Shown here: one piece after another, positions 7,429 to 20,192 of the stretch | How the letters are laid out: each line of letters begins with the position of its first letter | How positions within the stretch are numbered: the first letter of the stretch is position 1 | From: an uncultured Planctomycetaceae bacterium | GTDB lineage: Bacteria > Planctomycetota > Planctomycetia > Pirellulales > UBA1268 | Direction: 5' to 3' | Assembly (NCBI GenBank): GCA_913052575.1 | Contig: CAJXFK010000008.1 | Location: 1-53,107 of the forward strand | Length of the DNA: 53,107 nt | Notes under the pieces: model-generated | Seen by the model: only the letters and a program-made list of their open reading frames with translations | What the model was told of the DNA's origin: nothing | Database searches by the model: none | Made by a program: the position numbers and the translations under genes

Positions 7429-10400
7429 TTATGATTCTGACTTCATATGCACATCTACTTGAGGGAAGGCAATCTCAATATTTTCTTCAGCAAAGCGTTC
7501 AGCTATTGCATTATGGAGTTCATTGACGGTAGCAAAACGATTGTCGAGCGTTGCGAGATAAAAGCGGACAGCAAAGTTCAGCGTCGAATCTCCAAACTCG
7601 TCGAAGGTCACTATGGGTCCTGGTTCTTTTAGGATGTGTGGCGTATTGCGACAAATTTCTCTGAGAATTTCACCCACGCGTCTGGTGTCCGTTCCATATG
7701 CAACACCGACCCGGACGAGTGAACGGTTTACAGAATCTGAAAGGGTCCAGTTAATGACACGGCCCGTAATGAGATCCTTATTTGGGATTACATATTCCTG
7801 ACGTTCATACGTTGTGACTGTCGTGGCTCGCATTCGAATTCGTGATACAACACCCGTGACTGAATCAATCGTGACGACATCTCCCACCCGAATAGGCTGT
7901 TCAAACAGAACGATCAGCCCGCACACGAAATTTGCGACAACTTCCTGGAGTCCAAAACCAAGGCCGACACTTAGGCCTGCAGCGAGCCATTGCACGCTAC
8001 TCCAGCGAAGCCCTAGTGCTCCAGCAACAACGATCACTCCACAAAAAGCAAAAACGTAACTGATGAGTGTGTTCAGGGCATACCGTGCCGCATTATCGAG
8101 GGGCAGCCGCTGAAGAATAAGTGCCTCAAGGAGCCCGGGTGTATTACGGACAAGCACAAAAGTAATGAGTAAGGTCGGTAGCGCTACAAGAACGTTACCG
8201 AGTGAAACCGAACTCAGGACTTTCCCATCCGGCGCCAGTTCCTGCCAAAGAACAATCGATTCGAGAAATGAAAGAGCAGGCAAGACGGGGCTCCAGATCC
8301 AGAGAAGTCCCGAGAAGAGCACGATAAGAACTGATGCATTGATAAGCCGGTGTGTCTGCTCGTCAATTGCAGACAGTTTCATCTGGTTGACATCAAGAAG
8401 ATCGGTTGCAGCGCCTGAGGCCTCCGCCTGTTCCTTTATTGCCATTTGCTCTTTCAGTTGCCGCAATGCAATGCGTCTTTTCGATACAAGGAGCCATCGT
8501 TCGGCGATACCTTGTAGCACTGCTGTAGCAACGACAAGCCAGATTGTTTGGTACAGCGATATTGTTAATTGTCCAGCAGCATACGCGTAGCCAGACAGGC
8601 TTAGGCCTGCAAGAACAATTGGAATTACGATAAGGAACGGCCGCCAGATCCACTCAAACCTTGCAATGAGGCTATCGGGTTGGGTTGCTCGCAGCCCTGC
8701 AACAACACCAGACTTTTTATCAAGAAGTCTCCAGAGGGTTCCCGCGATGAAAAGCATTAGGATCGCAAAAATAATGCGGGCCAGTGCAGAGATTTCTCGA
8801 TGCACGTATCGTTCAAGTAGGAGAAAGGTCGCAAGGAAAACAAGTGTCAAGCCAACCCAGCCAATGCGTCGTACAGCCTGACCAAGTGGTTTGATGACAA
8901 GTTCAGGCCATCCAAAGTGAGCAGTTGCAACGCCGTGTGGACGGATCAGTTGTCGAAGTATTTCAAGGGGCAAGAAAACAAGGCCTGCGACCCAAAGCCC
9001 ATTCGCGATAGACGCCTCAGTCGACTCTGGCTCAGCATATCGTCCAAGAAACCAGGCCACCGCGGAGAGTGCGAGCCACACCGGAAGAGAAGCGCATACT
9101 GTGAAACAGACTGCTTGTATCGTTGGCCATAAACGCATTGCGTTTGAGCCGTTAACCGAACTACTTATGGCAGTGATGCGTCGAATGAAGACTCGGTAAC
9201 AGAGTGCCATTGCAACCGTGGCTAATAAAAACGATATAGCGAGAAAAGGTTTGGCAGTTACGTTGCTCCAAAATGATTTTATGATTGAGCCAACAGGCTG
9301 TGATTCAAAGCGCTTCGCGACTGTGTAAAGACGGCTTATATCTGAGAGACGAATCGGCTTGTCGCTACGAACCCAAAGAAGATTGGTGTCGATAAGGTGC
9401 TGGTACTCGTCGATGATGTGTGATACTTGATCGAGGGTCACACCGAGAGGAATAAGGATGTCGATAAGACAGCGGTCAATGTCGATACTCATGGTGCTCA
9501 GGATTTTTTTCCTGGCTTTGAGTGCGTCTTCTTTTTCCTGATTATTATTCAACGATAATTGTTGTTCGACTTTATCGAGTTCGGTGTCGATGTCACCGAG
9601 GATATCTTGTGCATTATCGACCGCCGAACCTTGCGAATAGGACTGGTAAAGGAGAGTCCGTTCCCGGTTGAGCATGACATGCTTCCTGCGCAGCAGATAG
9701 CCAGCTGTGCGACTCAGACCAGAGCCTGTTGCACGATCGGAGTCAACGAGCGACATCGTTTCCTGCATGTCTTCTCGTAGACGCTTTGTCTTTTCTTTAA
9801 GGGCAAGCAGTTGCGTGCTCAAAGTCTCTGCGTTTGAGACTGTCAGAGGCCATTGGTCAAGCAGTTTGGAAAAATGGTCAAAATCGTATGAGTCATTAAA
9901 GTCTTTTTCTTGTGCACTAGCACGATAGGTAGCAATCTTGGAATTGATTTCATCGGTATGTCGTCGTGTAACCCATGCTGTGACTGTTGTAATTGTTCTT
10001 GAGATTGCCGCTGCACGTTTGTCTAAGTCGGTTTTCTCGAGGGGTAAGACGGATGCCTCAGCATCATAGGTAATGATTTTTTGTTGAGCTAATTCGAGAA
10101 TGGTCTCGAGTTTGGCTCTCTTGGCAACAGTGGCTTGTTTGAGTGCTGATGTAAGAACAGGGTTTTCCCCTTTTGTCTCTATCGGGGAGGAAAGCGTGGC
10201 CAATTCTTCTTCTGTCTGGGAAATCTGTATTGGCAGTTCTTTAGTTTCTGTGCGACGTTCGTTGAGCTGCTGCTGGATTTTATTTGCTTCCGCGGTTGTC
10301 GATAAAAGCTGTTTATTGAGAGTTCGCAGAAGTTCTTCAATTTGTGCACCATCACTTTCAGCCGTCACTCCGTTGAGCGGTATATTTATCTCTTGATCTT

Positions 10401-10875
10401 CAAGACGTTCAGCTACTTTCTTTCTTTGCTCGGAGGACCTGGCTGCCTGAGCCAGTGTTTCCATGAGTTGTTGATCTTGTACCTGGCTTTCGATGTCTTT
10501 CAGTGTGTTGGTGAGCACTTCCTGGCATCGGGTCCGTAATTCCTCTGGGAGAGAATTGTCTGTTCGAACGGCCTCAATGGCATCACGAATTCTTTCAGCA
10601 TCGCTTGTGGATGCACTTGATGAATTCTCTGGAGTATCTGGAGTTGAAACTGCAGCCTGCGCATCGTTACGCGTTTCTTGTTGTTGTTGTTGTTGTTGTT
10701 GTTGAGCAGATTCTTGAGCCCTGGCTGTGTCTTTTGGTTCTGTGTCGGCTGCCAAGGTTGCTATTGGCGTAAAGGAGCCTTGGAAAACCAAGATTGCGAA
10801 TAACACAATGCACAATCGAGGTAAGCGAAATTGTTGATATAATCGATAGAAGCTATGCTGGAGCCAAATGTGCAT
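7429..10875 (-). CDS. Large MscS/MscK-type mechanosensitive channel
   Basis: An 1148-residue member of the MscS superfamily, sized like MscK. It has a signal peptide (to about residue 43, ATLAAD), a long periplasmic coiled-coil region with many Glu/Gln/Lys heptads (about 45-520), roughly a dozen membrane helices (about 545-980), then the channel domain. The pore-lining helix and MscS beta domain are seen in GLSVGLGFGLQEVVANFVCG, LFEQPIRVGDVVTID, the RATTVTTYERQEYVIPNKDL segment and the C-terminal cytoplasmic cage ending ENIEIAFPQVDVHMK. Such channels release solutes on sudden osmotic downshift. A run of about nine Gln encoded by a pure CAA repeat lies just after the signal peptide. Single-gene unit, divergent from egtD. 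Confidence 0.93.
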   Translation of the reverse strand: MHIWLQHSFYRLYQQFRLPRLCIVLFAILVFQGSFTPIATLAADTEPKDTARAQESAQQQQQQQQQETRNDAQAAVSTPDTPENSSSASTSDAERIRDAIEAVRTDNSLPEELRTRCQEVLTNTLKDIESQVQDQQLMETLAQAARSSEQRKKVAERLEDQEINIPLNGVTAESDGAQIEELLRTLNKQLLSTTAEANKIQQQLNERRTETKELPIQISQTEEELATLSSPIETKGENPVLTSALKQATVAKRAKLETILELAQQKIITYDAEASVLPLEKTDLDKRAAAISRTITTVTAWVTRRHTDEINSKIATYRASAQEKDFNDSYDFDHFSKLLDQWPLTVSNAETLSTQLLALKEKTKRLREDMQETMSLVDSDRATGSGLSRTAGYLLRRKHVMLNRERTLLYQSYSQGSAVDNAQDILGDIDTELDKVEQQLSLNNNQEKEDALKARKKILSTMSIDIDRCLIDILIPLGVTLDQVSHIIDEYQHLIDTNLLWVRSDKPIRLSDISRLYTVAKRFESQPVGSIIKSFWSNVTAKPFLAISFLLATVAMALCYRVFIRRITAISSSVNGSNAMRLWPTIQAVCFTVCASLPVWLALSAVAWFLGRYAEPESTEASIANGLWVAGLVFLPLEILRQLIRPHGVATAHFGWPELVIKPLGQAVRRIGWVGLTLVFLATFLLLERYVHREISALARIIFAILMLFIAGTLWRLLDKKSGVVAGLRATQPDSLIARFEWIWRPFLIVIPIVLAGLSLSGYAYAAGQLTISLYQTIWLVVATAVLQGIAERWLLVSKRRIALRQLKEQMAIKEQAEASGAATDLLDVNQMKLSAIDEQTHRLINASVLIVLFSGLLWIWSPVLPALSFLESIVLWQELAPDGKVLSSVSLGNVLVALPTLLITFVLVRNTPGLLEALILQRLPLDNAARYALNTLISYVFAFCGVIVVAGALGLRWSSVQWLAAGLSVGLGFGLQEVVANFVCGLIVLFEQPIRVGDVVTIDSVTGVVSRIRMRATTVTTYERQEYVIPNKDLITGRVINWTLSDSVNRSLVRVGVAYGTDTRRVGEILREICRNTPHILKEPGPIVTFDEFGDSTLNFAVRFYLATLDNRFATVNELHNAIAERFAEENIEIAFPQVDVHMKSES
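10678..10704. repeat. (TTG)9 trinucleotide microsatellite
   Basis: Nine uninterrupted TTG units, read as CAA (Gln) on the coding strand of the MscS gene, lie just after its signal peptide. Being a triplet, changes in copy number would lengthen or shorten the glutamine run without shifting the frame. Confidence 0.95.
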
Positions 10876-11129: not shown

Positions 11130-12173
11130 GTGTCCGTCGATAATACATTTGAGTCGCAGTTGGAACAGGATCAAGTAGCGGTACAAGACGGACTTCAACT
11201 TATTGAATTCGCACCTCAGCAACGGCCTTTAATTGAGGAAGTCCTTGAGGGTTTAACTGCGAAGGAGAAGTCGCTTCCTGCAAAATTACATTACGACCAG
11301 CGTGGAAGTATGTTATTTGAACAGATTTGCGATGTTGATGAATACTATATTACCCGGACGGAACTCGCTCTGATGCGGGAGATTTCCGGAGCTATTGGCG
11401 ACACGCTTGGTAAAGGCTGCATGCTTATTGAACCGGGTAGTGGTGCCAGCCTTAAGACAGATCTTCTCCTGTCGGCGATGCCAAATCCAGCAGCATATGT
11501 CCCGGTAGATATAAGCCGAGATTTTCTTCTTGAATCGGCAACTGCCATTGCTGATAGGCATGATATTGAAGTTCTGCCAGTATGGGCAGATTTTACAAAG
11601 GGACATCCCATACCATCTTGTGAGGCTGTAGTTCGAAATCGGGCAATTTACTTCCCTGGTTCAACGGTTGGTAATTTTAGCCGTTCCGATGCCGCATGCC
11701 TTCTTCAAAATTTTGCATCGATGATACGCGATGACTCTGATGATGAGCAGATAGGTTCTGAAGGCGCTGTTGTCGTTGGCTTTGACTGTAAAAAGGACAC
11801 GTCTCGGATGGAGGCTGCCTATAACGACTCTGAGGGAGTCACTGCTGAATTTAATTACAATGTGATTGATCGCCTTGCACAAGAATTACGTGTGTCGCTT
11901 GATCGTGAAAAATTCACATTTCGTGCTGATTGGGTAGAGGATGAGGGTGCGATTGTGAGTCGGCTGTGGGTAGACGAAAGCCACACAGTAGAAATGGCTG
12001 GCGAAAAAGTACGGTTTGAGGCTGGTGAAGCAATTCGTATGGAAGAATCGCACAAGTACACTCCGGAAGAATTTGAGACACTCGCACAGCAAAGTCGTCT
12101 TGGGATGGAGCGAATCTGGACAGATGATGCTGGCGATTTTGCTGTTGCATATTTGCGACCGCTTTCTGTCTGA
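11130..12173 (+). CDS. egtD: EgtD-type L-histidine N-alpha-methyltransferase
   Basis: A 347-residue SAM-dependent enzyme of the EgtD family, which trimethylates the amino group of histidine to give hercynine, the first step to ergothioneine. Family blocks are all present: LHYDQRGSMLFEQICDVDEYYITRTE, the SAM loop IEPGSGASLKT, YVPVDISRDFL, YFPGSTVGNFSRSDA, and IRMEESHKYTPEEF, whose E-x-S-x-K spacing matches the residues that hold the histidine imidazole in mycobacterial EgtD. The start is the GTG at 11130 after AAGGAATGGGG; the earlier track start adds 18 unrelated residues. No EgtB (sulfoxide synthase) gene is in the window. An OpuC/EgtUV-like ABC importer follows 52 bases downstream on the same strand, which suggests a shared substrate class. 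Confidence 0.9.
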   Translation: MSVDNTFESQLEQDQVAVQDGLQLIEFAPQQRPLIEEVLEGLTAKEKSLPAKLHYDQRGSMLFEQICDVDEYYITRTELALMREISGAIGDTLGKGCMLIEPGSGASLKTDLLLSAMPNPAAYVPVDISRDFLLESATAIADRHDIEVLPVWADFTKGHPIPSCEAVVRNRAIYFPGSTVGNFSRSDAACLLQNFASMIRDDSDDEQIGSEGAVVVGFDCKKDTSRMEAAYNDSEGVTAEFNYNVIDRLAQELRVSLDREKFTFRADWVEDEGAIVSRLWVDESHTVEMAGEKVRFEAGEAIRMEESHKYTPEEFETLAQQSRLGMERIWTDDAGDFAVAYLRPLSV

Positions 12174-12225
12174 TACGTCTGGAACGGAGAACACGAACCG
12201 TGCTGCGAGGAGGTGTTCAAAGAAC

Positions 12226-13023
12226 ATGGATGTTCCTGCAATAGAACTTGTTGCGCTGACGAAGCAGTTTCGGAATACAAAAAAACCCGCAGTAGACTCC
12301 GTTAATCTTTCCGTCTCTCAGGGTGAGGTCCTCGCTATTGTTGGAGGCTCAGGGAGTGGGAAGACGACAACATTAAAGATGATTAATAGACTGATCGAGC
12401 CGAGCTCAGGTTTGATCAGGGTCATGGGTGAGGATGTCACCAATCGTGATCCAGTCATACTTCGACGTTCTATTGGGTATGCCTTTCAGGGTGTAGGGCT
12501 GTTTCCCCACATGACCGTCGGGCAGAATGTCAGCGTGACCCTTCGCTTACTGGGCCAAGATACAGAATGTGTCTCGAAACGAGTCGATGAATTGCTCGCG
12601 ATGGTTGAATTGCCCGCTGAGGAATATCGAGATCGTTTGCCTACAGAACTTTCCGGTGGTCAGCAACAGCGGGTAGGTTTCGCGAGAGCACTCGCGTCTC
12701 AGCCACGCGCAATACTCATGGACGAACCGTTTGGTGCACTCGATCCGATCACACGTGATGCACTCCAACAGGAATTTCGGTCGTTGCAGAAAAAATTACA
12801 AGTGAGTGTTGTTCTTGTGACCCACGATATGTCAGAAGCTGTTCTTCTTTCGGATAGGGTCGCAGTTATGCATGAGGGACAAGTTGCACAGGTGGGAAGC
12901 CCGCATGAACTGTTGACAAAGCCCGTGAATGACTATGTCGCTCAATTGATTGACACACCTCGTCGTCATAGTGATTTCATAGAGTCGTTGATGCGTGAGG
13001 CACCGATTGAAGGTACATCATGA
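12226..13023 (+). CDS. OpuC/EgtV-type ABC transporter ATPase
   Basis: A 265-residue ATP-binding subunit of a quaternary-amine or betaine-type importer. Walker A is GGSGSGKTTTLK, the Q-loop region is GYAFQGVGLFPHMTV, the signature is LSGGQQQRVGFARAL, Walker B is AILMDEPFGALDP, and the switch His is in VTHDMSEAVLLSDR. The protein stops soon after the nucleotide-binding core and lacks the CBS-domain tail found in many OpuA/OpuC ATPases, as in EgtV. ATG at 12226 follows GAGGAGG; the track ORF's 70 extra N-terminal residues overlap egtD and are discarded. It overlaps the next gene by four bases (ATGA). Its position directly after egtD suggests import of ergothioneine, hercynine or histidine betaine-like compounds, but family members also carry choline, carnitine or glycine betaine. 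Confidence 0.88.
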   Translation: MDVPAIELVALTKQFRNTKKPAVDSVNLSVSQGEVLAIVGGSGSGKTTTLKMINRLIEPSSGLIRVMGEDVTNRDPVILRRSIGYAFQGVGLFPHMTVGQNVSVTLRLLGQDTECVSKRVDELLAMVELPAEEYRDRLPTELSGGQQQRVGFARALASQPRAILMDEPFGALDPITRDALQQEFRSLQKKLQVSVVLVTHDMSEAVLLSDRVAVMHEGQVAQVGSPHELLTKPVNDYVAQLIDTPRRHSDFIESLMREAPIEGTS

Positions 13024-14597
13024 CACCCAAGATGCAAATTCTCTTTGAACAGTTACCTGATCTGTTAGGCGGTCATCTCACTCTTGCTGTGCCAGCAATT
13101 TTCATGGGCGTACTCATAAGCGTGCCCCTTGGAATACTCTGTGTGAAGTCAGCAAGAATACGTGGGCCAGTGATGTCGCTCGTGTCGCTTGTTCAAACAA
13201 TACCGAGTATTGCTTTGCTCGCAATTATGGTGGCATTGTTAGGTGGGACAATAGGCTACTGGCCTGCTTTCATCGCTCTGCTCATATATAGTATTCTGCC
13301 AATTATTCGAAACACTATTGTTGGTTTAGAATCAGTAGATCCGGCGATGCGGGAAGCTGCGAAAGCTGTTGGTATGAGGCCAGTTCAGCAACTTCTCTGG
13401 GTTGAATTGCCGCTCGCGTTACCAGTGATTCTCGCAGGTATTCGTACTGCCACTGTCTGGGTGGTAGGCATCGCCACACTTTCAACACCAGTTGGAGCAC
13501 CCAGTTTAGGAAATTATATTTTTAGTGGTCTTCAATTACGCGATTGGCAGAGAGTTATTTTTGGGTGTGTTGCCACAATGACACTTTCGCTTGTATTAGA
13601 TCAGCTCATTGCTGTTATTGAAAAAAGTATTCAGGCACGGCATAGGGTGTCTTTGGTATTGGCAAGTTGTGCGCTTGCAGGGCTCGTCGGGATTGGCCTT
13701 GCCCCCGGCTTTATGGCAGAAGATGCTGCAGGATTTTCAAACCTACTTGGGAGTAGAGAAGGCGTAGCAGAATCTTTGGAACCAGAAGAATCGCCATTAA
13801 CACTGGATGGACAAGTTATACGTATTGGCGCAAAGGGTTTTACTGAACAGTTTATTCTGGCAGAAGCACTCCGTGAAAGAATACGAAAAGTTGGTGGTAC
13901 ACCTGAAGTGCTTACCAATATGGGATCCACCATTGTGTTTGATGCGCTTGCTAAAGATACAATAGATATCTACATCGACTATACCGGGACCCTTTGGAGC
14001 ACCGTATTCAAGGAAGCAAATCCTATCGGCCGAGTTTCGATGCGAGCCGACGTAGCTGGAAGGCTTTTTAATGATTTTGGTATTGTTCTCCTTGGGCCAC
14101 TTGGATTTGAAAACACCTATGCCCTTGTGACGCAACGCAAGACTGCATTTCGGTATGGTCTTTCAGAGATTGGTGACCTTACACCAGTAGCAAAAGATCT
14201 ACGGATTGGTGGAGATCCAGAATTTTTTGGACGTCCAGAATGGCAGCGTGTAAGACAGCTCTATGCTTTGGATGACATTACTGAGGTTGGAATGGATTCC
14301 ACCTTCATGTATCAAGCGGTAGCTGACGGACAGGTCGATGTTGCTGCAGGTTTTTCTACGGACGGCAGGATCGATGCCTTCGACCTTACCGTACTCGGTG
14401 ATCCGAAACAGGCATTTCCACCCTACGATGCGGTAGTTCTGCTATCACCACGAGCTGCGAAAAACCAAAATCTTGTGCATGCAATCGAGCCGTTACTGAA
14501 TCGGGTATCAGTTACGGCGATGCGGGCAGCGAACAGGCTCGTAGACGAAGACGGAGAGTCACCAAGAGAATCCGCGCGGCAATTATTAGCAGACTAG
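13020..14597 (+). CDS. Fused ABC permease and substrate-binding protein (OpuC/EgtU-type)
   Basis: A 525-residue two-domain protein. Residues about 10-230 form the permease, with several helices and the ATPase-docking EAA loop MREAAKAVGMRPVQQLLWVELPLALP. Residues about 262-523 form a periplasmic binding domain of the OpuAC/ProX-like class: IRIGAKGFTEQFILAEAL, DIYIDYTGTLW, LGFENTYALVTQ and GFSTDGRIDAFDL. Permease-binding protein fusions of this order occur in EgtU ergothioneine importers and in some osmolyte importers. The ATGA overlap with the ATPase gene means the two are coupled, and only these two proteins are needed for a complete importer. It closes the egtD operon. Ligand cannot be decided by eye; the egtD linkage is the main hint. 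Confidence 0.88.
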   Translation: MTPKMQILFEQLPDLLGGHLTLAVPAIFMGVLISVPLGILCVKSARIRGPVMSLVSLVQTIPSIALLAIMVALLGGTIGYWPAFIALLIYSILPIIRNTIVGLESVDPAMREAAKAVGMRPVQQLLWVELPLALPVILAGIRTATVWVVGIATLSTPVGAPSLGNYIFSGLQLRDWQRVIFGCVATMTLSLVLDQLIAVIEKSIQARHRVSLVLASCALAGLVGIGLAPGFMAEDAAGFSNLLGSREGVAESLEPEESPLTLDGQVIRIGAKGFTEQFILAEALRERIRKVGGTPEVLTNMGSTIVFDALAKDTIDIYIDYTGTLWSTVFKEANPIGRVSMRADVAGRLFNDFGIVLLGPLGFENTYALVTQRKTAFRYGLSEIGDLTPVAKDLRIGGDPEFFGRPEWQRVRQLYALDDITEVGMDSTFMYQAVADGQVDVAAGFSTDGRIDAFDLTVLGDPKQAFPPYDAVVLLSPRAAKNQNLVHAIEPLLNRVSVTAMRAANRLVDEDGESPRESARQLLAD

Positions 14598-14650: not shown

Positions 14651-15685
14651 TCAGACGGATTCGATTGTAGCAACCGCTTTGAGCACACCGCTTGATGGAT
14701 CAACAAGCTGTGGAAAAATTTCTGGTAGTTCTGTCCAGCTCATGCGATGGGTTATCCAGGGTGCCGTGTTGATTCGGCCAGCCTCAATATCTTTCACGAT
14801 ACGATCAAAGTCACGTGACAAAGCATTTCGACTTCCAAGGATTGAGAGTTCTCGACGATGGAGAAGCGGAGCGTGTGGGAATGAAAGCTTGCCTTGAGTT
14901 ATTCCTACGTACACCACCCGCCCACCAAATGCACAGAATTCAAGTGAACGGTTCATGCTGCGATCACTACCCGTTGCATCAATGACGACATCACAGAGTT
15001 CGTTGCGGGTCATTTCTTCGATTTTGTTTAGATCTGCTTCTGTTCCATCAGCACAGACTGTGTCGGTGAGATTATAGATTTTTTGAACAAAGTCCAGTCG
15101 GCTTTGAACCATGTCCATTACGATGAGGCGAGCCCCAGTGAGACGAACGAATTCCATCGCAGAAAGTCCGATTGGACCAGCACCTATAACAAGGACGGTT
15201 TCCTGAGCAGTGATCGTGGCTCTATCAACTGCGTGACACCCAATGGCAAGTGTTTCTACAAGTGCATTTTGCTCAGGAGTGAGATTTGGAGATGTGTGGA
15301 GTTTTCTTGCAGGCATGATGAATTGAGGCCGAAGCCCTCCATCGCAGTGTACGCCAAGCGTTTGATGATGCTCACAACAATTTGTTTTCCCAAGTCGACA
15401 TGAGTGACAATCCTGGCAATTGATATAGGGCTCAACGCAGCAGCGATCTCCAGCGGAGATGTTTTCGACATCGTCAGCAGTCCTGATGACTTCAACACCA
15501 AGCTCATGACCAGGAATTCTTGGGTAGCTAAAAAAAGGCATTTTTCCGAGGTACCCACCGTAGTCGGTGCCGCAGATGCCAACTGCTTCAACACGCACAA
15601 GGGCCTCACCAGGTTGCAATGTACCCGGCTCTGTAATGTCAATCATTGCCCATTGTTTTGGCTGTACGAGTTGGAGCGCTTTCAT
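14651..15685 (-). CDS. Zinc-dependent MDR dehydrogenase (sugar/polyol type)
   Basis: A 344-residue medium-chain dehydrogenase resembling threonine, sorbitol and galactitol dehydrogenases. Catalytic zinc ligands are visible in GICGTDYGG and PGHELGVEV (Cys and His-Glu), and the four structural-zinc cysteines lie in CQDCHSCRLGKTNCC. The nucleotide site is VLVIGAGPIGLSAME, followed by an acidic residue (VMDM), which favours NAD+. It is the last gene of a six-gene minus-strand operon, 38 bases after the lactonase-like gene. In a fuconate-type pathway it could oxidise L-fuconate or 2-keto-3-deoxy-L-fuconate; the exact step is inferred from neighbours only. It converges on the ABC transporter gene with no clear terminator between. 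Confidence 0.88.
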   Translation of the reverse strand: MKALQLVQPKQWAMIDITEPGTLQPGEALVRVEAVGICGTDYGGYLGKMPFFSYPRIPGHELGVEVIRTADDVENISAGDRCCVEPYINCQDCHSCRLGKTNCCEHHQTLGVHCDGGLRPQFIMPARKLHTSPNLTPEQNALVETLAIGCHAVDRATITAQETVLVIGAGPIGLSAMEFVRLTGARLIVMDMVQSRLDFVQKIYNLTDTVCADGTEADLNKIEEMTRNELCDVVIDATGSDRSMNRSLEFCAFGGRVVYVGITQGKLSFPHAPLLHRRELSILGSRNALSRDFDRIVKDIEAGRINTAPWITHRMSWTELPEIFPQLVDPSSGVLKAVATIESV

Positions 15686-15723
15686 TATTGATGGTTCCGG
15701 AGGAGTCGGTGGGATAAATTTAT

Positions 15724-16560
15724 TTAGTCCTGCACAAGACCATAAAATATTTTTGCATTTCTGCTACGGATTGCATTTGCCTCGTCAAGTGAAAGCTGGT
15801 CAATGAGACTGTTCGCAACGCCAATCACCTCGGCATACTCGGCAGAAAGAAGGCAGACGGGCCAATCACTGCCGAACATAAGTCGGTCTGGCCCGAAAGC
15901 ATCCATTGCAGTTTCTAGGTACGGTGTGAAGTCGCGCTGGCGCCAGATTTTCCAATCAGCTTCTGTTACAAGCCCAGAGACCTTACACATCACATTTTCA
16001 TGCTCTGCTAATTCACTAAAGTCCTGCTTCCAGTCATTGATTTCACCGCTTTTAACTGGTGGTTTCGCCATGTGATCCAAGACAAAGTGTTGTTCTGGAA
16101 AAAGTCTGACCAGCTCAACCGCAGCGGGAAGTTGATGGGGGAAAATAAGGAGATCATAAGTAAGTTCAAAGTCCGCGAGCTGCCGAAGTCCCCTGAGAAA
16201 CTCTGGGCCTAAAAGAAAACGTGGATCGGGTTCATCTTGCACGACATGCCGAACACCAACAAATTTCTTGTTTCGCGAAAAATGTGAGAGATCATCACCT
16301 ACTGATGGACTTCTAAGGTCAACCCATCCAACCACGCCACGAATCGAAGGATACTCATCAGCACATTTAAGGAGCCATTGGGTTTCCTCTTTTGTCTGGC
16401 GAGCCTGAACCGCTACCGAGCCAGAGATATTATACGGTTGACTTGTTTGAACGAGCTCGGATGGCAGGTAGTCTTGAGCCAGACGTTCCATGCCAGAGGT
16501 TATCCATGGATAGTCTGCTTGAGAATATTTCCAGAAATGTTGGTGGGCATCAATGTTCAT
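15724..16560 (-). CDS. Amidohydrolase-family sugar lactonase (L-fuconolactonase-like)
   Basis: A 278-residue TIM-barrel metal hydrolase of the amidohydrolase_2 group that includes L-fucono-1,5-lactonase and L-rhamnono-lactonase. The N-terminal DAHQHFWKY supplies the metal-site HxH, followed by the family segment YPWITSGMERLAQDYLPSEL. Later motifs are HFVLDHMAKPPVKSG, NVMCKVSGLVTEADW and the active-site Asp stretch RLMFGSDWPVCLLSAEY. These enzymes open a sugar lactone to the free aldonic acid. It lies between the aldo-keto reductase (which would make the lactone) and the zinc dehydrogenase, an order that fits a non-phosphorylating deoxy-sugar route. Size is normal for the family. Confidence 0.87.
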   Translation of the reverse strand: MNIDAHQHFWKYSQADYPWITSGMERLAQDYLPSELVQTSQPYNISGSVAVQARQTKEETQWLLKCADEYPSIRGVVGWVDLRSPSVGDDLSHFSRNKKFVGVRHVVQDEPDPRFLLGPEFLRGLRQLADFELTYDLLIFPHQLPAAVELVRLFPEQHFVLDHMAKPPVKSGEINDWKQDFSELAEHENVMCKVSGLVTEADWKIWRQRDFTPYLETAMDAFGPDRLMFGSDWPVCLLSAEYAEVIGVANSLIDQLSLDEANAIRSRNAKIFYGLVQD

Positions 16561-16603
16561 GGATTATGTGAAAGGTTGAGAATCAGAAATAGGTACCCGG
16601 GTG

Positions 16604-17536
16604 TTAGTTGTTTTCCGCGAGCCCTTCACTGTGGCCAATATTCTTTACGGACGCAAATTTGTTAAGAACTGACCGAAGGAGTTCCTGGTCAAGTGGCTCT
16701 CGTAGCCATTCGGCCCATTGCTGAATATTTTTCGGGTTTGCACTTCCGGCAACAGTTGTCGCAATTGCAGGATTGCTTACTGAGAACTGAAGGGCCAGTT
16801 TGGCTAATGATGATCCGTGTTCTTTACAAAATGCCACAGCATCACGAGCAGATTGGCGAACGTTTTCTGGTTCCTTCAGCCATGGAGGAAGCGGAGCATC
16901 AGTAAGCAGCCGAGCGCTAAAAGGTCCGGCGTGCATGACTCCAATGTTTTTTTCTTGTAAGTAGGGGATTGTTTCATCGGCAAATCGTGTGTTTTGAAGT
17001 GTGTATTGGTTGTAATTCAATACGCAGTCAACATCTGTCTGATCACAAATGAATCGAAAGATTTTTTGTGGGTATCCACTGAATCCGATAAACCGGATTT
17101 TCCCGGACTGTTGGGCCTCACGGAGTGCTGGGATTGTCTCATCCACAATTTGTTGCATCGGGACAAATTCGATATCGTGACAAAGCATGATATCAAGGTG
17201 ATCTGTACCAAGTCGATGGAGTGAGATATCAACACTTTCAGCAACTCGCCGTGCCGAAAAGTCAAAGTGACCGACATCATATCGGCCAAGCTTCGTGCAA
17301 AGTAAATAGTTGTCGCGAGGGATGTCTTGTAGTGCTAAGCCGAGCATGATCTCGCTCATGCCGCGGCCATAGAATGGGCTTGTGTCGATGAGATTCATGC
17401 CATTTTCAATAGCAACGCGAACGCTTGACAGTGCCTCGTCGATAGAGATTTTACGAAATTCTTGTCCAAGAGACGAAGCTCCGAAGGATAGAACAGGCAC
17501 TTCAAGACCGGTTTTTCCGAGGGTTCTGGTTTGCAT
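16604..17536 (-). CDS. Aldo-keto reductase (L-galactose/L-fucose 1-dehydrogenase-like)
   Basis: A 310-residue AKR barrel. The catalytic tetrad is readable: Asp and Tyr in NLIDTSPFYGRGMSE, Lys in LLCTKLGRYD, His in DIMLCHDIEFVPM. HDIEF and the overall pattern match plant L-galactose dehydrogenase and bacterial L-fucose or D-threo-aldose 1-dehydrogenases, which oxidise C1 of the pyranose to a lactone with NAD(P)+. The GSANPKNIQQ segment near the C-terminus is the cofactor-phosphate region. It lies 24 bases after the FucU-like mutarotase gene and 43 before the lactonase gene, consistent with consecutive steps mutarotation, oxidation, hydrolysis. Sugar specificity (fucose versus galactose, arabinose or rhamnose) is not decided by the sequence. 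Confidence 0.85.
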   Translation of the reverse strand: MQTRTLGKTGLEVPVLSFGASSLGQEFRKISIDEALSSVRVAIENGMNLIDTSPFYGRGMSEIMLGLALQDIPRDNYLLCTKLGRYDVGHFDFSARRVAESVDISLHRLGTDHLDIMLCHDIEFVPMQQIVDETIPALREAQQSGKIRFIGFSGYPQKIFRFICDQTDVDCVLNYNQYTLQNTRFADETIPYLQEKNIGVMHAGPFSARLLTDAPLPPWLKEPENVRQSARDAVAFCKEHGSSLAKLALQFSVSNPAIATTVAGSANPKNIQQWAEWLREPLDQELLRSVLNKFASVKNIGHSEGLAENN

Positions 17537-17560
17537 GAGAATTCTCTTTAGTTGTGAAAT

Positions 17561-18025
17561 TCAGGGAGTGGAGTCAAAAGTGCGGCAGCCGATTGATAGC
17601 AGGAGATTGGCCCATGGTTGGGTGTCAGCCGTTTGAATTGTGAGAAGGTGGTCTGGGGATTCAACTGCTTTATAGAAGTCCCATTTGACGATTTGTTCAA
17701 GGCTACAAGTGTTTTTTGCCTGCCGGAGAAGATCGCGATATGTACTCCAGACCGGTGGGTCACCTGGAGTCGCTGAGGCATATGAGTCTTCTCTATCTAC
17801 ACCCATTGTCTGGACGCCATCAATCTGAACAGTGCCTAGTATTGCCTGAAATACCTGGGCGACAGTAGGGACGTCTGGCATAACTTGAAGTGATACAACG
17901 TGAGCATGTGTTCCTCGTTTTGTTGCAGCAGGATAATTCCCGTCGGCGATGAGAACAAGTGAATGATGACCACTTGTGGCAAGGATTTTAAGTATTTCAG
18001 GATGTAGGAGTGCTGTGTTGAGCAT
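17561..18025 (-). CDS. fucU: RbsD/FucU-family sugar mutarotase
   Basis: A 154-residue member of the small RbsD/FucU family, cytoplasmic ring-forming proteins that interconvert anomers of L-fucose or D-ribose. Family features are LLHPEILKILATSGHHSLVLIADGNYPA at the N-terminus (with the conserved His and Asp-Gly-Asn), the hydrophobic core VPTVAQVFQAILGTVQID, and the Tyr-rich downstream region around WDFYKAVESPDHLLTIQTAD. In FucU the C-terminal motif helps bind fucose. It is placed between a sugar isomerase-like gene and an aldo-keto reductase that would use the anomer it supplies. FucU is preferred over RbsD because of the fuconolactonase-like and L-fucose-dehydrogenase-like neighbours. Confidence 0.82.
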   Translation of the reverse strand: MLNTALLHPEILKILATSGHHSLVLIADGNYPAATKRGTHAHVVSLQVMPDVPTVAQVFQAILGTVQIDGVQTMGVDREDSYASATPGDPPVWSTYRDLLRQAKNTCSLEQIVKWDFYKAVESPDHLLTIQTADTQPWANLLLSIGCRTFDSTP

Positions 18026-18052
18026 GGCTTGATCGCTATTGAGTGAGATAAA

Positions 18053-18886
18053 TCATGAGGGTTTGCAAGTCTTTATTGACCGTATTGTTTGTTGTGCCGC
18101 GTCAGTTGCAGAAGGTAAGGGGAAAACCTCTGCTGCAAGGTATTTGGCATAACCTCCATCAAGTAGTACCTGGTAGATCGCCTGTGAATTCGAATGGCCA
18201 TACCCCATGGCTTTTCTGTTTGAGTCTGCCCAGTGCACATGACCAATGATGTCTGAATGGATTGTACTGACGTGACGTATCGATTCTGGCACGTTCGACT
18301 CTTCAATATTCATGTGGAAGAGGTCACAGAGGAGTCGAACGCCACGCTGCACGAGATCATTCTCTACCAGAAACTGAGCTGCTGCCTCTTGTGTGTTTAG
18401 CAGATTGGTCTCATAACGATTGAGCGGCTCGTAGAGAAGCATTTGCCCTTGGCCTTTGGCTCGATCAGCCAGAGTCGCTAGCCCTTCTGCAAGAAGTTGA
18501 AGAGCTGACTCACGTGTAGTGGCTTCAGTGCTTTGGCCCTGCATGGAACCAATAATTACCGGAGCATTATATTCGGCCGCGGTATCAATCAGTGCAGAAA
18601 TGAATTCTATGGCCCTTGCTCGTTTCTCGTGGTCTCCATCAGTGAGAGATAGTCGTTGCTTCAACCATCCCGCTCCGGTGCCAACTGCCGCTACATTAAG
18701 AGAATTTTTTTGAAGAAGTGACGAGAGTTTACTAGCCGGGAATTCTTTAGCACTGCTGGGGAATATTTCTACAGCGTCAAAGCCTGCCTCAGCCGCAGCT
18801 TGACAACCGGCTTCGATTCCGTCGTGAAATACGAATGGTCCTCTTTGGGCCTCTGGTACAAGACAAATTGTGATAGCTGATTTCAT
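18053..18886 (-). CDS. Sugar isomerase/epimerase, TIM barrel (AP_endonuc_2 family)
   Basis: A 277-residue xylose-isomerase-like barrel. Metal-site acidic and His residues can be placed in LLYEPLNRYETNLLN (Glu), RLLCDLFHMNIEESN (Asp, His), IIGHVHWADSN (His) and LAAEVFPLP (Glu). This is the pattern of the hydroxypyruvate isomerase, tagatose 3-epimerase and IolE-like group, which act on keto sugars or keto acids. It is the second gene of the six-gene operon, 58 bases after the UxaE-like gene and 27 before fucU. Exact substrate unknown; an epimerase or isomerase acting on an open-chain keto form of the same sugar is the simplest reading. Confidence 0.82.
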   Translation of the reverse strand: MKSAITICLVPEAQRGPFVFHDGIEAGCQAAAEAGFDAVEIFPSSAKEFPASKLSSLLQKNSLNVAAVGTGAGWLKQRLSLTDGDHEKRARAIEFISALIDTAAEYNAPVIIGSMQGQSTEATTRESALQLLAEGLATLADRAKGQGQMLLYEPLNRYETNLLNTQEAAAQFLVENDLVQRGVRLLCDLFHMNIEESNVPESIRHVSTIHSDIIGHVHWADSNRKAMGYGHSNSQAIYQVLLDGGYAKYLAAEVFPLPSATDAAQQTIRSIKTCKPS

Positions 18887-18944
18887 GATATTCCCTCTCT
18901 CGACAACATTGTTCGTGCGCCAAAAGTACTACTTGCCGAAAGCA

Positions 18945-20192
18945 CTACTTCGCGAATAGGGGCTCGAGATGCCTTTCGTAGAGGTTGGTGGTAACCTGTT
19001 CTGCAACAATCTCACGATGTTCTTTTAACAGGTTTGTGTATCGAGAGCCTTCAGCAGCAGCTACCTTGAAGGCAATGTGCAGGAGTTGCCGAACGTGGGG
19101 GTTGAATCGGCTATCAGTCTGAATATGGCGAATAGTTGCAGCAGTATCGGAACCAGAGAGCGCTTCAAAGTTGTCCACCGAGAGCAATTGGTTGGGATTG
19201 ATATCAATCACCGTTGCATATGGCTCGCAGAGTTCTTCACGATTATTCATTGCATATCGATATACGTCACGAACAAGACGAAGCCCATCACCCTCCGCTT
19301 CGGCGAGTCCAATGAGTTCTTCGAGCCACGTTGTGCCAGCCGTTTTAAGATGAACCCCGGAACCGGTCGCGTGTAGTACCCGACGGATAATAGGATACAG
19401 AGAGAATTTGTCACTCCCAGAATGAACAGAAAGTTTGAGTGTCTCTGGGAGTCCATACTGTTTCACTGCGAAGGCACATACCGCAACATCATCTGAGAAT
19501 TCTTGCTCGAATTGTGCAAGATCGCCCACGTAGTCGACCCCCTTGTTGAATCGGCCTGTAAACTTCGGAGCAACCGTTTGCACAGGAATCTTGGCGTCGG
19601 CTAATAGTGCCAGTATGACGAGTAACTCAGGCGGGGTTTGTGGCTCATCAGTTTCATCCATACTCACTTCAATCACAACATCATCGCCACGAGATTGAGC
19701 GATATGGTTGTAGATTACAGACGCGTCCCTGCAGGCTTTGTAATATTTTCGGACGATACGAGCCGTCCCATCCTCAGAGAGACGAATAACCTTGGTAATG
19801 CCTGGTATGGAGACGGGCTTACAAAGTTCTGGGTGAGCGGCAACAAAGGTATGTATATCGGATTCATCAGCTGCTTCACCAATTGAATCCGCAACATCAA
19901 TGGTGAAAAAATCACTTGAACTAAGATACCCGTCTACGGTTTCAAGACGAATGTGATCAGCGTCAACATACCAAGGTCCTTTCCAGCCGGACTCAGCGAT
20001 GGCTACTGCTGCCGCCGCGCGAACATCTTCTGGTTTGCTGCCAATAAAACCATGCTCCCGATGTGATTTATTCCAGACAGGTGAAACGTCGACACCCTCT
20101 TCGGCTAGTCGTTGAAAAGCAGCGAGTTGGGCTTTGGCTTCATGCCCGAAGCGGTCACCGACGCCAAAAGAGAAACGGGGCAAAGTTCGCAT
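18945..20192 (-). CDS. UxaE-like (tagaturonate epimerase family) protein
   Basis: A 415-residue protein resembling the tagaturonate 3-epimerase family common in planctomycetes. Visible features are a start RFSFGVGDRFGHEAKAQ, an acidic and His-rich stretch YVDADHIRLETVDGYL, EVSMDETDEPQTPPELL, VAPKFTGRFNKGVDYVGD, KLSVHSGSDKFSLYP and HLKTAGTTWLEEL, arranged as a TIM-like barrel with probable metal ligands (DADH, SMDE, HSGSDK). UxaE interconverts D-tagaturonate and D-fructuronate. In this operon, with FucU, a C1 dehydrogenase and a lactonase, it might act on a keto-aldonate derived from a 6-deoxy sugar. First gene of the operon, directly beside the divergent AraC regulator. Assignment is from memory of the family; moderate certainty. 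Confidence 0.65.
   Translation of the reverse strand: MRTLPRFSFGVGDRFGHEAKAQLAAFQRLAEEGVDVSPVWNKSHREHGFIGSKPEDVRAAAAVAIAESGWKGPWYVDADHIRLETVDGYLSSSDFFTIDVADSIGEAADESDIHTFVAAHPELCKPVSIPGITKVIRLSEDGTARIVRKYYKACRDASVIYNHIAQSRGDDVVIEVSMDETDEPQTPPELLVILALLADAKIPVQTVAPKFTGRFNKGVDYVGDLAQFEQEFSDDVAVCAFAVKQYGLPETLKLSVHSGSDKFSLYPIIRRVLHATGSGVHLKTAGTTWLEELIGLAEAEGDGLRLVRDVYRYAMNNREELCEPYATVIDINPNQLLSVDNFEALSGSDTAATIRHIQTDSRFNPHVRQLLHIAFKVAAAEGSRYTNLLKEHREIVAEQVTTNLYERHLEPLFAK

Follow-up and report, generated by a model that had tools for sequence, protein, structure and literature searches.

Gene content of the locus

The stretch analysed here, called the window, is 53,107 nucleotides of contig CAJXFK010000008.1 from an uncultured Planctomycetaceae bacterium. 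Its subject is a group of three genes on the forward strand that encode EgtD, the methyltransferase making hercynine from histidine, and an ATP-binding cassette (ABC) importer of the betaine type. The source genome is a draft (2.9 Mb, 172 contigs, 84.7% complete); all genomes of the genus are draft assemblies of small, uncultivated bacteria, and its named public relatives are planctomycete metagenome-assembled genomes (MAGs). The features are as follows.

11130..12173, + strand: EgtD, histidine N-alpha-methyltransferase (hercynine synthase), 347 aa; TIGR03438, PF10017
12226..13023, + strand: ABC transporter ATPase, ProV/OpuCA type; PF00005; best NCBIfam model TIGR01186 proV, below cut-off
13020..14597, + strand: permease-substrate-binding fusion, 525 aa, permease first and binding domain second; PF00528 and PF04069
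13803..14594, + strand: OpuAC-type binding domain, fusion residues 262-525, placed by alignment to AfProX and SpEgtUC
7429..10875, - strand: divergent MscK-like mechanosensitive channel; PF12794 and MS_channel domains

The egtD gene starts at a GTG (11130) and stops at 12173, its frame opening further upstream at a TTG (11076). The ATPase gene follows after 52 bases and overlaps the fusion gene, which starts at 13020, at an ATGA. Pfam places BPD_transp_1 at residues 35-204 of the fusion and OpuAC at residues 267-524. An OpuAC binding domain, a BPD permease and an ABC ATPase are thus encoded together, as expected of an OpuC/ProU-type betaine ABC importer. An earlier reading made from the letters alone (the sequence-only reading) had described this same arrangement, and its coordinates, strand, spacing and domains all held. 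A scan for promoters and terminators yielded sites no more numerous than in shuffled sequence.

EgtD is intact and under selection

The window EgtD matches Methyltransf_33 (PF10017) with E=1.6e-88 and passes the NCBIfam egtD equivalog model TIGR03438 (299.5 bits for a cut-off of 290.9). Its best match among solved structures is the Mycobacterium smegmatis enzyme, whose residues Y39, F47, Y56, G161, N166, Y206, T213, E282 and S284 have retained equivalents in the window and in the genus, while the M252 position is a serine in the window protein. N166, Y206, E282 and S284, among others, serve in histidine binding. Within the genus, the ratio of non-synonymous to synonymous change (dN/dS), taken where synonymous change is unsaturated, was 0.04-0.06 for EgtD and 0.04-0.07 for the fusion, so that both genes must be maintained by strong purifying selection. 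With the active site intact as well, a relic is ruled out, and the enzyme would be expected, judging by its sequence, to make hercynine in vivo.

Two further BLAST matches, one in G004 (L103:7691-8632) and the second match in G023 (L104:6587-7522, on G023:C22), are homologues devoid of the histidine-binding residues N166 and Y206. They were treated as paralogs and left out of the EgtD counts. The G023 paralog lies near another ABC importer, and both are possibly methyltransferases acting on a different amine. In one genome of the genus, G113, egtD (L064:8386-9464; G113:C54:44388-45424) is split near residue 73 into two frames overlapping by 4 bases; since the other long egtD copies of the genus are intact, either faulty assembly or a recent frameshift would explain this.

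The known sulfur-adding enzymes are absent

Each of the ten genomes available for the genus has EgtD. EgtB, the sulfoxide synthase, reached the TIGR03440 cut-off in none of them (top score 67 bits, cut-off 360), and egtB was not found in those egtD flanks that are sequenced through. Outside the genus, the order sample contains 38 genuine EgtD genomes; 35 of these have EgtB, mostly adjoining egtD. The absence of EgtB that the sequence-only reading had noted for the window therefore extends to the whole set of genus genomes. Assembly gaps do not account for it: the probability of missing EgtB in all ten is about 5e-9 if the genomes are independent, and the egtD flanks were read through. In the window genome, the top EgtB-like matches are proteins of the FGE-sulfatase kind that lack DinB_2; a genuine EgtB of the order, taken as control, carries both domains. 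The SenA and OvoA N-terminal models give this control 358 and 113 bits, respectively, and SenA or OvoA should therefore have shown up as well.

The two other known ways of adding sulfur were sought in six genus genomes, and neither EanB nor MES was found as a replacement for EgtB. Rhodanese frames were listed in a set that includes the window genome, G000, 84.7% complete; the representatives read were of the SseA, YgaP, TrhO and CstB types, and EanB was not found. MES is a protein of about 1136 aa with a molybdopterin plus cysteine desulfurase layout (PMC9516567). The molybdopterin frames in the six genomes measure 468-787 aa, those read were FdhF-like or NuoG-like, and no desulfurase fusion was seen. 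The known sulfur-adding enzymes are thus absent from this lineage. This agrees with the partial route ending at hercynine that had been suggested from the window alone. The genus has lost EgtB or never had it, and hercynine, rather than ergothioneine, is probably what is made and taken back up.

EgtD without EgtB over the cut-off was also observed in Rhodothermota/Bacteroidota, at L210 (Salinivenus lutea, G162), L199 (G160) and L225 (G165); G162 has no TIGR03440 match whatsoever. In these three genomes egtD adjoins an NAD-binding reductase-like gene, and no sulfur enzyme was found among the egtD neighbours in the Salinivenus and Bacteroidota loci. By their gene content, G162, G160 and G165 are further candidates for hercynine as an end product.

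Conservation and recurrence of the pairing

Every genus locus retains the order egtD-ATPase-fusion as far as its contig reaches, and the importer is the sole OpuAC-family protein in each of the six genus genomes checked. EgtD and this type of importer were found in none of 20 sister-genus genomes of the same family; one sister-genus genome (G125) has an importer of another type. The joint presence of EgtD and importer in the genus is probably a single evolutionary event, and was counted once.

Elsewhere in the order, an OpuC-type importer lies near egtD at 15 of the 38 genuine EgtD loci of the other families, usually with egtB, where a rough density estimate predicts about 0.25. This survey of other planctomycetes had been proposed in the sequence-only reading, which held that EgtD and a betaine-type importer are functionally linked; the pairings, and the gene order kept across the genus, bear this out. 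The same reading took non-conservation of the egtD neighbour in relatives as a sign against itself, and the neighbour turned out to be conserved in the genus. It also called the pairing of a biosynthetic step with an importer odd, which it is not: such pairings recur, within the order as well as outside it in further phyla, and egtB is usually present too. Among named loci, egtD-linked importers occur in Phycisphaerae, Armatimonadota, Dadabacteria, Verrucomicrobiota, Myxococcota/Deltaproteobacteria and a Methylumidiphilus.

Clusters of egtB and egtD with an OpuC/EgtU-like importer were observed in the order at L069, L070, L071, L072, L074, L075 and L082, where the fusion has the substrate-binding protein (SBP) first, and in other groups at L192, L193, L195, L217, L223, L228, L236 and L251. 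These importers are possible recapture systems for ergothioneine or hercynine. In G081, a genome of another family, the sole OpuAC importer adjoins egtD but has the other layout, and EgtB is missing.

An independent pairing in this genus

The egt-linked importers of the order have the SBP first, whereas the permease comes first in the window fusion. In a tree built from 44 importers, a single branch with 100/100 support separates one layout from the other, and the window importer groups with permease-first importers of family f15. The egt-linked binding domain of G016 is closest to EgtUC (134 bits versus 114 for ProX). Orthology of the window importer with the egt-linked importers of the order is excluded by the tree and by the domain order. 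Because the window importer belongs to a different clade, the egtD-importer pairing is of independent origin in this genus, with a different kind of importer.

A distant planctomycete MAG, G154 (69% GC), has the EgtD closest to that of the genus, at 65% identity, the two joining on a branch with 100% support. EgtB was not found in it, and its sole OpuAC protein is a permease-first importer about 50% identical to that of the window. The two importers agree in the pocket letters E, N, Y, E, R, F and Y; S274, E338, N339 and F419 (EgtU numbering) are shared with the genus. In the importer tree, G154 is no closer to the genus than to f15, so that a joint transfer of the egtD and importer genes is not supported.

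The binding pocket is ProX-like

The closest solved relative of the binding domain by sequence is Archaeoglobus fulgidus ProX (AfProX), with 154 bits versus 105 for EgtUC and 82 for Helicobacter pylori EgtU. The structural comparison with EgtU suggested earlier was carried out, with ProX included, on an AlphaFold2 model (mean predicted local distance difference test score 93.1). The best fold match was again AfProX (3mam, template modelling (TM) score 0.92), with H. pylori EgtU at 0.90.

In fusion numbering, the pocket residues are K272, F274, Y321, F363, E364, N365, Y367, E401, R405, F445 and Y469; in EgtU numbering, the positions read K242, F244, S274, T275, Y293, T296, F337, E338, N339, Y341, E375, R379, F419 and Y443. 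F293 and G244, with an accompanying Y337, have been named as EgtU-specific (Zhang et al., PMC9732360). In all seven genus sequences G244, F293 and Y337 are replaced by F, Y and F, as in AfProX. EgtU membership, which the sequence-only reading had raised as a possibility, is ruled out by these diagnostic residues and by the nearest solved structure. That reading had also named a residue-for-residue match with choline or glycine-betaine proteins as a finding that would weaken it. The pocket is indeed ProX-like, but the match is not residue for residue: Asn stands for Asp109 and Phe for Tyr190, so that of the four cage tyrosines three are retained (Y321, Y367, Y469) and the fourth is F445.

EgtUC has an affinity for hercynine about 10,000-fold below that for ergothioneine (PMC9732360), and an EgtU pocket would therefore make a poor hercynine importer. 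Going by its residues, a pocket without the EgtU determinants fits a sulfur-free ligand, which may be either hercynine or glycine betaine.

Neighbouring genes

The MscK-like channel adjoins egtD in every genus locus reaching that far. It is a syntenic neighbour, not shown to belong to the module; Amt and a dehydrogenase are also syntenic with egtD in the genus. On the other side, genes for sugar-acid catabolism occupy 14651-20192 on the - strand: a zinc dehydrogenase, an amidohydrolase, an aldo/keto reductase, RbsD/FucU, a xylose-isomerase-like protein and a UxaE-like tagaturonate epimerase.

Discussion

We favour, with a probability of roughly 0.45, the view that the three genes form a sulfur-free module for the synthesis and recapture of hercynine, with hercynine as its end product and a ProX-type importer. 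EgtD would methylate histidine three times to give hercynine, which, because the lineage has no known sulfur-adding enzyme, would probably accumulate as the end product and serve as an osmolyte or protectant betaine. The ATPase and the fusion would form a ProX-type importer taking hercynine, and possibly related betaines, back from outside, as happens with compatible solutes that leak from cells. Reuptake of self-made compatible solutes is established for other solutes. This view builds on the computational results for gene identities, operon layout, the lack of known enzymes for adding sulfur, conservation, purifying selection, co-occurrence and the ProX-like fold; from these we infer hercynine formation by EgtD in vivo, hercynine as the end product, its osmolyte role and its binding by the importer. 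The conserved MscK-like channel fits an osmotic setting weakly, because Amt and the dehydrogenase are syntenic too.

Several observations weigh on the other side. The pocket is near that of AfProX, a binder of glycine and proline betaine; the f15 importers, nearest relatives of the window importer, are not near egtD; and in G154 egtD was not found next to the importer. Moreover, a fourth kind of sulfur-adding enzyme would be unrecognisable by our searches, and the genomes are all uncultivated drafts.

The strongest rival is a general importer of glycine betaine or proline betaine for osmoprotection, co-regulated with hercynine synthesis. Hercynine would then be a second betaine, and the operon would be shared for osmoadaptation rather than for a ligand. 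The proximity to AfProX in sequence and fold, with its F, Y and F at positions 244, 293 and 337, speaks for such an importer, as do the f15 relatives away from egtD and the channel next door; being the sole OpuAC importer of the genome, it may have to serve all betaines. However, of the four cage tyrosines that glycine-betaine-specific ProX proteins are said to share, one is Phe here (F445), and Asn replaces the Asp. The importer and EgtD were also gained together in the genus, co-occur in G154 and are both absent from sister genera. We consider this explanation rather unlikely, though it is the one to be taken most seriously after the hercynine module.

Uptake of ergothioneine from the environment, by an EgtU-like function with other residues, EgtD being a remnant or serving for recycling, is improbable. 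The permease-first layout is that of EgtU, N, Y, E and R are retained at EgtU positions 339, 341, 375 and 379, and transporters of other subclusters without the key determinants can reportedly still take up ergothioneine, with lower affinity (Zhang et al., PMC9732360). Against this stand the three EgtU-specific positions, the bit scores that put ProX ahead of both EgtU proteins, and the purifying selection, which makes EgtD no remnant.

More improbable still is that the cell makes ergothioneine, or another sulfur or selenium betaine, by an unknown enzyme whose gene lies elsewhere. Sulfur addition is already known from three unrelated enzymes, and some 25 EgtD genomes (about 80 minus 55) were left without a known sulfur-adding enzyme or an explanation (PMC9516567); but no candidate adjoins egtD in any genus genome, and the EgtB-, EanB- and MES-like searches were negative. 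Least credible is a chance neighbourhood without common function: adjacency within one genus may be plain synteny, as for Amt, MscK and the dehydrogenase, but other families and phyla show pairings of independent origin, the genes are present or missing together within the family, and they co-occur in G154, all of which speaks against it.

If the hercynine module is accepted, a further and slightly more tentative step is that it would represent a dedicated hercynine operon assembled independently of egtB-linked importers, a sulfur-free branch of ergothioneine metabolism with a class of hercynine importer not described so far. The occurrence of EgtD where no sulfur-adding enzyme is present is a recognised puzzle, for which this genus offers a clean case, with ten genomes, strong selection and an importer at the locus. 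The parts and their general logic are already known; the combination appears undescribed. In the literature searched, with most subscription papers outside its scope, we found no description of EgtD with an independently recruited ProX-type importer and no sulfur-adding enzyme, nor of OpuC/EgtU-like importers beside egtB-egtD; the main EgtU paper makes no mention of EgtD (PMC9732360). Since such importers accompany egtB-egtD in many phyla, it is a general and testable hypothesis that producers of ergothioneine or hercynine recapture what they make.

Comparison with known systems

Like mycobacterial EgtD (M. smegmatis 4pim), the window enzyme exceeds the TIGR03438 cut-off and keeps the histidine and S-adenosylmethionine residues. 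The mycobacterial pathway differs in that the window lineage has no EgtB and would end at hercynine, M252 is Ser, and egtD stands beside an importer. With EgtU/EgtUV of Streptococcus pneumoniae and H. pylori, the window importer shares the permease-binding fusion with a separate ATPase, the cluster F fold and several ligand-contact residues, but it lacks G244, F293 and Y337 and is nearer ProX in sequence. The bacteria from which EgtU was described are not ergothioneine producers, whereas the window importer is linked to the methyltransferase.

The contacts K, F, T, Y, F, Y, E, R and Y of A. fulgidus ProX are common to the window domain, which differs by the two cage substitutions, by its fusion behind a permease and by its link to EgtD. 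The egtB-importer-egtD clusters of other planctomycetes and phyla likewise place EgtD together with the ATPase, permease and binding domain of an OpuC-type importer; unlike the window, they are SBP-first, belong to another clade and usually include egtB, and the one queried is nearer EgtUC than ProX. Finally, hercynine was detected as a cellular betaine in 9 of 10 cyanobacterial strains that accumulate it, although in these cyanobacteria further ergothioneine genes are present and most contain a thiol of hercynine (PMC3826126).

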